Positions 4,007 through 21,523 of a DNA stretch of 42,745 bases are shown here, piece after piece. Position numbers and translations under genes: made by a program. The first letter of the stretch is position 1. Each line of letters opens with the position of its first letter. A model generated the notes under the pieces. The model made no database searches, was not told the origin of the DNA, and saw only the letters and a program-made list of their open reading frames with translations. This DNA comes from a virus: IMG/VR virus record IMGVR_UViG_3300043399_000251, positions 1 to 42,745 of that record; one strand, given 5' to 3'.

Positions 4007-4359
4007 TAAGATTCCTTGTCTAACATGCCTAATTCAACCTCTAGTTTACGCATTTCATTTAATGCTTTGCGTTGCTCTAATCTATCTTTAACTCTAGGAA
4101 ATAGGGCTGCATCAGCACCTTTAGTTATATTAACTTTAACGGTATTTTCTTCTCTTCTCCAATGAATATAGGATTTAATATAGACTGCAGCATAGGCTAG
4201 AGCCATTACGATAAACCCATATTGCTTTGTAGCTAGTGCATAGGCAATCCAGATACATTCATTTACCAATAGGATTAACCAACCCCATACTGTCTTTTTA
4301 CCGACAAAGAACATGCCTGTAACGCCGATGGCTGCTAATACCCAAGACCAAAGTTCCAT
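4006..4359 (-). CDS. Small membrane protein, 117 aa
   Basis: The ATG at 4359 is chosen over a GTG at 4371 because it follows GGAG and makes a TAATG overlap with the previous stop. Two to three hydrophobic helices fill residues 3-65 (WSWVLAAIGVTGMFFVG, WGWLILLVNECIWIAYAL, YGFIVMALAYAAVYI). A charged cytoplasmic-looking tail follows. The helices resemble the repeating unit of PnuC-type transporters and small phage membrane proteins, but it is too short for a full PnuC. Role unknown. Confidence 0.6.
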   Translation of the reverse strand: MELWSWVLAAIGVTGMFFVGKKTVWGWLILLVNECIWIAYALATKQYGFIVMALAYAAVYIKSYIHWRREENTVKVNITKGADAALFPRVKDRLEQRKALNEMRKLEVELGMLDKES

Positions 4360-4828: not shown

Positions 4829-5018
4829 TTTCTTTTACGACTTCTTCACGCTCATAGAATCCGAACATATGTAGCATAACCTTTTCACGGATATACTCCA
4901 GTTCTTCAACCTGAAGTGGTCTGCCTAGACCCTCTTCACTCTTTTTAACTAAATCGTTAAACATTTCTACTGCTTCATCAGCCAACTGCTGCGAAGTCTT
5001 TTCTGTATCATTTTCCAT
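4812..5018 (-). CDS. Hypothetical helical protein, 68 aa
   Basis: A short acidic, mostly helical protein with no cysteines. It overlaps both neighbours by 11-17 bp, as do many genes of this operon. No family recognised. Confidence 0.55.
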   Translation of the reverse strand: MENDTEKTSQQLADEAVEMFNDLVKKSEEGLGRPLQVEELEYIREKVMLHMFGFYEREEVVKENEADS

Positions 5019-20698: not shown

Positions 20699-20986
20699 TC
20701 ACAAATCGAGGTCTTTTGCGAGTGCATACTTGGGCTTAGCACCTATGATTTGCTTGTTTACCTGTCCATTTTCAACCAACATTATGACTGGAATAGAAGT
20801 AATTCCAAACTCACCTGCTAGTTCTGGCTCTTCATCTACATTGATTTTAATTAGTTCTAGATTGTGCTCATCTGCTAATTCCTGTAAAACTGGGGCAACC
20901 ATCTTACATGGTCCACACCATTCAGCCCAGAAATCTAGGATAGCCTTTTTATCTTTCACTGAATCTAATAATTCTTGCTTATTCAT
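20699..20986 (-). CDS. trxA: Thioredoxin
   Basis: The 95-aa protein contains ILDFWAEWCGPCKMVAPVLQ with the redox pair Cys24/Cys27, INVDEEPELAGEFGITSIPV with the cis-proline, and ENGQVNKQIIGA. All are classic thioredoxin elements, though the length is slightly short. It reduces disulfides in the cytoplasm; phage thioredoxins can serve ribonucleotide reductase or a polymerase, and neither partner is evident here. Its AAGGAG ribosome binding site is inside a palindrome (20991-21006) next to a structured RNA, so translation is probably controlled. Confidence 0.92.
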   Translation of the reverse strand: MNKQELLDSVKDKKAILDFWAEWCGPCKMVAPVLQELADEHNLELIKINVDEEPELAGEFGITSIPVIMLVENGQVNKQIIGAKPKYALAKDLDL

Positions 20987-20990
20987 AAAA

Positions 20991-21006
20991 CTCCTTATAT
21001 AAGGAG
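20991..21006 (-). promoter_or_regulatory. Palindrome sequestering the thioredoxin ribosome binding site
   Basis: CTCCTTATATAAGGAG is a perfect 16-bp palindrome. Its second half contains the AAGGAG that lies 4 nt before the thioredoxin ATG. Folded as CUCCUU-AUAU-AAGGAG it would block ribosome access. Its first three bases (CTC, 21006-21004) are also the last three of the 13-bp stem of the adjacent structured RNA, so the two helices compete. Confidence 0.6.
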
Positions 21007-21143
21007 GGTGACGGATGCAAAATATCCAACTGCACCAAATAGCGTAACGGAATCAGCCTATTACGCTGTCGCAGACCAAGACTCTGCGAATGTCGGGATA
21101 TCGGAATAAGTAACTACACCATCCTAAGATATCCGCCACCCTC
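21004..21143 (-). ncRNA. Structured leader RNA of thioredoxin, riboswitch-like
   Basis: On the minus strand a 13-bp helix (one G-U) joins 21143-21131 (GAGGGTGGCGGAT) to 21016-21004 (ATCCGTCACCCTC). Inside lie a 6-bp hairpin CGCAGA/TCTGCG (21070-21088) and a 7-bp hairpin AGCGTAA/TTACGCT (21041-21067). A 7-bp pairing GGATATC/GATATCC (21134-21128 with 21102-21096) overlaps the closing helix and would compete with it. The element begins one base after tRNA-Asn and ends in the helix that hides the thioredoxin ribosome binding site. I could not match it to a known RNA family. It may sense a ligand or tRNA processing. Confidence 0.6.
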
Positions 21144-21144
21144 G

Positions 21145-21216
21145 CTGGAATGAGAGGATTCGAACCTCTAACCCGCCGATTAACAATCGGCTGCTCTGCC
21201 ATTGAGCTACACTCCA
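21145..21216 (-). tRNA. tRNA-Asn (GUU)
   Basis: Cloverleaf on the minus strand: acceptor TGGAGTG pairs with CATTCCA (one G-U), discriminator G. The D arm begins TAGCTCAATGGCAGAGC, the anticodon arm is GCCGA-TTGTTAA-TCGGC with anticodon GTT, and the T arm is AGAGG-TTCGAAT-CCTCT. No CCA is encoded. It lies one base from the structured RNA downstream. Confidence 0.93.
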
Positions 21217-21255
21217 AAAATGGACAGGTGGATTGTCTATTACCACCAAGGAGAA

Positions 21256-21358
21256 GTCTAGATACCATTTAAGTACCGCCTTAATCCTACCAGACCTTTA
21301 CTCCGCTAAGAGTTGAGACGCTAATCTCAGACCTGTGCAATTCTCGCCCCATCTAGAC
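21256..21358 (-). ncRNA. Candidate structured RNA between tRNA-Thr and tRNA-Asn
   Basis: GTCTAGAT and ATCTAGAC close a 103-nt element. Inside are two adjacent 4-bp hairpins with the same TTAGCG loop (minus strand GAGA-TTAGCG-TCTC at 21328-21315 and ACTC-TTAGCG-GAGT at 21313-21300) and a 5-bp hairpin TTAAG-GCGGTA-CTTAA (21284-21269). AGGTCTG occurs twice, flanking the hairpin pair. More hairpins flank the element at 21227-21247 (GGTGG stem), 21361-21383 (GGGAC stem) and 21383-21404 (9-bp CAAGTTCTT stem). There is no reading frame. It is not a tRNA: no T arm is present. Confidence 0.45.
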
Positions 21359-21408
21359 AAGGGACTTCGTTCTGCCATGTCCCAAGTTCTTCGTCAAGAA
21401 CTTGTTTG

Positions 21409-21479
21409 AGCCTCTTGTTGGAATCGAACCAACACTTGTGCTTTACAAGAGCACTACACTACCATTATGTTAAAGAGGC
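21409..21479 (-). tRNA. tRNA-Thr (UGU)
   Basis: Acceptor GCCTCTT pairs with AAGAGGC and the discriminator is T. The D stem ACAT pairs with GTGT around AATGGTA. The anticodon arm is GTGCT-CTTGTAA-AGCAC with anticodon TGT, reading ACA. The T arm is GTTGG-TTCGATT-CCAAC. No CCA is encoded. It is the first gene after the promoter at 21495-21523. Confidence 0.92.
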
Positions 21480-21482
21480 GAA

Positions 21483-21510
21483 CTCCATAGGATAAATATA
21501 CCCTATGGAG
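21483..21510 (-). promoter_or_regulatory. Inverted repeat spanning the tRNA operon -10
   Basis: CTCCATAGG and CCTATGGAG (21483-21491, 21502-21510) form a 9-bp inverted repeat that encloses the -10 hexamer. It may be an operator. As RNA read from upstream it could also terminate the endolysin transcript, although no T tract follows. Confidence 0.5.
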
Positions 21511-21523
21511 AACGAAATGTCAA
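21495..21523 (-). promoter_or_regulatory. Leftward promoter of the tRNA / structured RNA / thioredoxin operon
   Basis: On the minus strand TTGACA (21523-21518) and TATATT (21500-21495) have 17 bp between them. It starts right after the endolysin stop codon. Transcription should begin about 10 nt before tRNA-Thr. Confidence 0.8.

Follow-up and report, generated by a model that had tools for sequence, protein, structure and literature searches.

What is the function of a structured RNA that lies between a tRNA gene and a thioredoxin gene in the genome of an uncultured phage? The locus is found on the minus strand of a viral DNA stretch of 42,745 nt (IMG/VR record IMGVR_UViG_3300043399_000251, analysed at its full length and called the window below), and the original prediction, made from this sequence alone, took the RNA for a riboswitch-like element controlling thioredoxin. 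What stands of this proposal is a structured and covarying RNA of no known class, collinear with tRNAs; the thioredoxin riboswitch does not stand. We find instead that a conserved core of the RNA is complementary to helix 69 of the 23S rRNA, in the version carried by the probable host.

The element within its tRNA cluster

The individual features of the proposed switch can all be recognized in the window (Table 1). The 13-bp closing helix (P1) is present on the minus strand and consists of 12 Watson-Crick pairs and one G·U pair, with 114 nt between the arms. It encloses the two strong hairpins, and CTC is common to P1 and the perfect palindrome, which includes the AAGGAG preceding the thioredoxin ATG. 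Both segments of the alternative GGATATC/GATATCC pairing are present as well. By our reading the RNA starts one base past the discriminator base of tRNA-Asn, and tRNA 3' processing is a plausible event for freeing the 5' end of the element. The fold has a predicted energy of -55.7 kcal/mol (z -3.5), which none of 200 dinucleotide shuffles reached. In the predicted ensemble P1 is dominant, and the palindrome hairpin forms only partially.

Table 1. Features of the window at and around the structured RNA
Feature	Positions	Strand	Remarks
Whole structured RNA element, window type	20991..21143	-	about 140-153 nt; fold z -3.5; homologues L002-L005
P1 helix, 5' arm GAGGGTGGCGGAT	21131..21143	-	covariation
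P1 helix, 3' arm ATCCGTCACCCTC	21004..21016	-	covariation
AS1 core CTTAGGATGGTGTAGTTAC	21110..21128	-	reverse complement of 23S rRNA ~1910-1930 (helix 69 and 3' flank), actinobacterial form
Extended antisense block TTCGC.GAGTCT..GACAGC..CGTTACGC..GTGCAG.TTGGA	21025..21090	-	colinear with the reverse complement of 23S ~1957-2017
Internal hairpin AGCGTAA/TTACGCT	21041..21067	-	arms 21041-21047/21061-21067
Internal hairpin TCGCAGA/TCTGCGA	21069..21089	-	arms 21069-21075/21083-21089
Palindrome CTCCTTAT/ATAAGGAG over the thioredoxin ribosome binding site	20991..21006	-	perfect; not conserved in relatives
GGATATC/GATATCC pairing	21096-21102/21128-21134	-	read from sequence
tRNA-Asn (GUU)	21144..21216	-	directly upstream of the element
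manA RNA (RF01745)	21217..21402	-	55.9 bits, just above the gathering score of 55.2
tRNA-Thr (UGU)	21408..21479	-	
Promoter-like site TTGACA-17-TATATT	21495..21523	-	11/12 match; just before tRNA-Thr
Thioredoxin gene, neighbour	20699..20986	-	Pfam Thioredoxin E 3.5e-26

The promoter-like site points into tRNA-Thr, a manA RNA that sits between the two tRNAs, tRNA-Asn, the element and thioredoxin, in that order. Covariance model searches against Rfam gave no family for the element, just as the original prediction had recognized no class: no match at gathering score was obtained for the element of the window, for those of ten carriers or for twelve loci of a second scan. In the window region the element also stayed unmatched at E values up to 5, where only the neighbouring positions 21217-21402 matched manA RNA.

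A family of covarying phage RNAs

A search based on the thioredoxin gene returned an identical copy of the locus (L002) and three diverged ones (L003-L005). The palindrome is absent from the three diverged copies, and in two of them (L004 and L005) thioredoxin is separated from the element by a tRNA gene. At more distant thioredoxin loci, tRNA-Thr is followed by a shorter RNA that shares with the element the core CTTAG(N)GATGGT(N)TAGTTAC. When viral contigs were scanned with this core pattern, at least 120 stretches were obtained, compared to 9 matches for the reversed pattern; an initial scan with exact 16-mers had, besides the identical copy, produced only chance matches to coding sequence. 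The family set comprises, among the matches listed, 137 instances in 34 clusters, nearly all of them non-coding. The element thus belongs to a large RNA family that has no Rfam match and is so far undescribed. None of the cultured phages examined carries the RNA.

Linear members possess a helix of 11-15 bp closing 1-5 nt before the core, and for 39 of 77 the start lies no more than 15 nt, in most cases 0-2 nt, from the 3' end of a tRNA. In about ten contigs the RNA is circularly permuted, i.e. GUGCAG precedes the core and the closing helix is a different one. Compact members are without adjacent tRNA and lie between two promoter-like sites, as seen directly in a sample collected via a neighbouring HNH gene; in many compact copies a promoter-like TACAATATA is found before the RNA and GTATAAT after it. 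They are located just upstream of this small HNH gene (L468-L547, e.g. L112 6989-7804), and in L112 they follow an Hsp20-like gene.

According to the original prediction, a lack of covariation in homologues, or loss of pairing in relatives that keep the thioredoxin gene, would speak against the structure. Neither was observed. The P1 arms of L003-L005 differ from those of the window and still pair, and across 24 linear clusters compensatory changes occurred at 11 of 11 inner P1 positions, so the helix reflects more than chance. All cells (100%) pair in this comparison, compared to 46% (maximum 62%) for re-dealt arms; as P1 was picked as the best helix, the percentage paired is partly given by construction, but this does not apply to the variety of pair types. 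In the sample obtained via the HNH gene rather than via the core, no break of P1 occurs in any of the 33 sequences, and compensatory changes are seen in 9 of 11 pairs (sliding controls: 33-52% paired). The core is kept in this sample, with one recurrent change that retains a G·U pair with the rRNA.

The strand can be deduced as well. The wobble pairs of P1 in A3, the HNH-gene sample, are G·U and never A·C, which fits a minus-type strand, and all 110 tRNA genes found within 600 nt of 88 instances are co-oriented with the RNA, none being opposite. A covariance model of the compact type, run over 192 kb, placed its five best matches on the elements of five other loci, on the expected strand; the window is included among the matches and is one of the two weakest, at E 3.1. 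Taken together, the element is confirmed as a real structured RNA on the minus strand, the strand of the tRNAs.

A switch between palindrome and P1, with the former hiding and the latter opening the ribosome binding site, would be expected to come with a conserved expression platform. We found the palindrome only in the window genome and its identical copy. Nor is there a conserved linkage to one gene or pathway, as members precede tRNAs, the HNH gene or other genes. Riboswitches are likewise compact covarying RNAs and sometimes lie upstream of genes; the family differs from them in being attached to no single kind of gene and in lying between tRNA genes, and its compact members differ further in having a promoter-like site of their own. 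Because a tRNA gene intervenes in close relatives and the palindrome is not conserved, we conclude that the element is not a thioredoxin riboswitch, and this candidate was rejected. Thioredoxin genes also occur in the tRNA arrays of Streptomyces phages that lack the RNA, BRock (L461, 793-1107) and LuckySocke (L553, 659-979), so the linkage of thioredoxin and tRNAs is older than, or independent of, the element.

Complementarity to rRNA

What the original prediction overlooked is a complementarity to rRNA: read as reverse complement, the conserved core CUUAG(N)GAUGGU(N)UAGUUAC gives helix 69 of the 23S rRNA together with its 3' flank, in the actinobacterial form. Scanning bacterial genomes with the core gave at least 119 stretches; among the matches listed, all are identical over 20 bases, which represent GUAACUAUAACCAUCCUAAG of the 23S rRNA in reverse complement, with the actinobacterial stem (E. 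coli ~1910-1930; all 23S numbers are E. coli-like and approximate). A control pattern of the same format, built as antisense of the sarcin-ricin loop, which is likewise a universal site of the rRNA, gave 3 matches. In the phage RNAs the complement is interrupted opposite U1917-A1918. The 2-nt linker completing it is present in 119 of 119 genome stretches and in 0 of 137 phage copies, among the matches listed. Since these two bases never occur, the phage copies are not rRNA fragments; contamination with rRNA is ruled out by the missing linker together with the sequence context. For the window core and its 23S site a duplex of -25.3 kcal/mol is predicted. Within the predicted window fold the core is partly paired (mean unpaired probability 0.42). 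In compact members UAGUUAC lies in the loop of a hairpin of its own (P2 in A3) and is complementary to the helix 69 loop, so that a loop-loop contact would be allowed.

In the longer members, that of the window included, the complementarity extends beyond the core to 23S ~1957-2017. The segment following the core in the window can be aligned in order, over 68 columns, with the reverse complement of 23S ~1957-2017. The best score, 42 with a Nocardia 23S, was reached by none of 500 shuffles (23.8 +/- 2.6, maximum 35). When the element was compared with a whole actinobacterial rRNA operon in both senses, the antisense optimum fell at ~1949, followed by 1969 and 1909, and nothing was found in sense orientation. 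Neither the manA RNA nor tRNA-Asn nor a coding control gave a signal against the operon; the idea that the manA RNA of the window is a further anti-rRNA RNA was consequently dropped. Over 24 clusters the antisense excess is significant (Fisher p 2.5e-7), and 1950-2010 ranks first among 128 windows. Compact members match the core and GUGC only. The order of core, 2017 to 1957 and P1 corresponds to a circular permutation of the antisense order, with P1 in place of helices 70-71. Compared to a perfect complement, the extended block shows 16 substitutions that keep a wobble pair, 8 that break it and 40 transversions, a pattern indicating that the block is not strictly maintained by pairing. The 23S similarity is visible only in these element-level and family-level tests: blastn, with the whole window as query and actinobacterial operons as subjects, found nothing at E 0.5.

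The core follows the host. In the four carriers of the actinobacterial version tested, the window included, the DNA polymerases or a terminase find their closest counterparts in Streptomyces phages, the hosts being assigned from such protein relatives. A core in E. coli form, with GACCGT in place of GATGGT, was predicted, and the search for it gave 99 stretches, 2 of them rRNA-like, among the matches listed. Most of these stretches belong to a second class of phage RNA (L344-L438, e.g. L381 about 2400-2490 and L369 about 4885-4990). Two carriers of this class were tested; their proteins are nearest to those of Sinorhizobium/Agrobacterium (Rhizobiales) and of Methylophilales/Pelagibacter phages, so that both resemble phages of proteobacteria. 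The complementarity to rRNA thus tracks the host lineage, as proposed for a class of trans-acting anti-rRNA RNAs.

The second class combines the antisense core with UUCGCUACC (antisense to 23S 1929-1937, helix 70) or UCGUGC. It also contains a hairpin with the loop CGGCUGCUG in 35 distinct copies (CGGCUACUG in one copy); of these two loops CGGCUGCUG is antisense to the 530 loop of the 16S rRNA (519-527). The two pairs beside the loop CGGCUGCUG are always C-G or G-C, switching between the two. No Rfam family fits the second class in the twelve loci searched. The class ends in a conserved AAGUGAGCA, and one phage carrying it also contains a group I intron (L393 11273-11500; RF00028, 80 bits). 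An E. coli-type core with the full-complement linker TA occurs near tRNA genes, in a different surrounding structure, in a tRNA-rich 144-kb phage contig (L357, about 4190-4260), possibly as a further variant.

Possible function and related RNAs

As the core complements the host's own version of this piece of 23S rRNA, the RNA is probably directed at the ribosome rather than acting as a thioredoxin switch. Judging from sequence, we favour, with a probability of roughly 0.55, a trans-acting and host-matched anti-23S RNA that is released from a tRNA transcript and whose pairing target is the helix 69-72 region of 50S subunits that are free or still immature. Transcription would start at the promoter-like site before tRNA-Thr, tRNA 3' processing would cut the element free of tRNA-Asn, and the RNA would then act in trans by base-pairing to this region, either in nascent 23S rRNA or in free 50S subunits. 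Helix 69 makes an intersubunit bridge and, on the free 50S subunit, is exposed; the putative target would thus lie on the face that docks with the 30S subunit. The likeliest effect would be that 50S subunits are kept out of translation or that their maturation is blocked, as part of the phage takeover of translation beside the phage's own tRNAs; of all steps, this consequence for the host is the least certain. By leaving U1917-A1918 unpaired, the linker would interrupt a long duplex, and whether this serves avoidance of RNase III or another purpose is speculation. Against an anti-ribosome function it has to be said that the phage needs host ribosomes and that blunt inhibition is not obviously useful.

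Several other explanations have to be weighed. The family might descend from antisense 23S sequence and act by protein binding or another route, so that the complementarity would reflect ancestry and not mechanism. The many transversions in the extended block and the location of parts of the core in a hairpin of the RNA itself (P2 in A3) would fit this. We nevertheless consider it unlikely, given that the core follows the host lineage (GATGGT or GACCGT) and that the second class presents other rRNA antisense sites in loops, with covarying stems and a constant loop. An element serving as spacer or processing signal, to mature or stabilize adjacent tRNA 3' ends, would account for the position of 39 of the 77 linear members close behind a tRNA (at most 15 nt, usually 0-2 nt), but it leaves the conserved core unexplained, and the compact members have a promoter-like site of their own and no adjacent tRNA; we regard it as improbable. 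Much the same low standing is given to a mimic of 23S helices 69-72 made from the opposite strand, i.e. a decoy for factors that bind rRNA or toxins that cut it, since, although the plus strand does read as a circularly permuted 23S fragment, 110 of 110 tRNAs and the promoter-like sites are oriented the other way, the P1 wobble pairs fit the minus strand and the stem and loop of helix 69 itself are not preserved in most members.

A DNA site for recombination, homing or packaging, resembling rDNA, would require no RNA at all. The rDNA of helix 69 is a well-known target of a homing endonuclease (I-CeuI) and compact members precede an HNH gene, which would agree with such a site; compensatory and G·U changes in P1 across clusters and the strict orientation relative to the tRNAs make it very improbable. 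Least credible of all appears a riboswitch or other cis-regulator of thioredoxin. The CTC common to P1 and the ribosome-binding-site palindrome in the window genome is what speaks for it, and the loss of the palindrome in L003-L005, the tRNAs intervening in L004 and L005 and the varied downstream genes speak against it.

Natural RNAs of bacteria or phages acting by antisense to rRNA are not known to us, and searches of an open-access library found none. Among known systems, the snoRNA guides of archaea and eukaryotes (H/ACA and C/D) resemble the element in being structured and in carrying split segments complementary to rRNA. The element differs in coming from a phage of bacteria, no H/ACA or C/D box motifs were noticed in it by eye, and, unlike in H/ACA guides, its segment order makes the rRNA gap face P1 and not an upper hairpin. 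Nor is a guide-dependent enzyme known. The stable RNA D of phage T4 (species 2 RNA) is, like the element, a stable phage RNA in a tRNA cluster. The T4 rnaD gene (L443 2054-2172) encodes a hairpin closed by CCGG; TCGCTACC in its loop is complementary to 23S 1929-1936, and the hairpin is near-identical in seven aligned T4-like phages. There is otherwise no sequence similarity to the element, and since an 8-nt match is expected by chance, RNA D is only a lead.

More tentatively, phages of at least two bacterial phyla may carry host-matched antisense RNAs to functional centres of the ribosome; these centres would be 23S helices 69-72 and, where the second class is concerned, the 530 loop of the 16S rRNA and helix 70 of the 23S rRNA. 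This would represent a widespread and so far undescribed phage means of acting on host ribosomes, and old phage stable RNAs that lack an explanation, T4 RNA D for instance, might belong here. If the antisense reading is true, it would give phages a further, RNA-based way of controlling host translation. It would also give a reason why some such RNAs travel with phage tRNA genes, and a shared target of long-known phage stable RNAs would become testable. In addition, the host-matched core could help to predict the hosts of uncultured phages.

Other structured RNAs of environmental phages with unknown function are manA RNA and wcaG RNA (RF01761). The element shares these traits, yet the Rfam models of neither match it, and the wcaG sequence differs. 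Using the wcaG model on nine carrier records we found nothing over the cut-off, with one weak partial match of 15 nt in the record of L131; in the positive control the model matched in two cyanophages. The description of manA RNA from 2010 refers to marine samples, gamma-proteobacteria and cyanophages. The manA RNA of the window occurs in a relative of Streptomyces phages.
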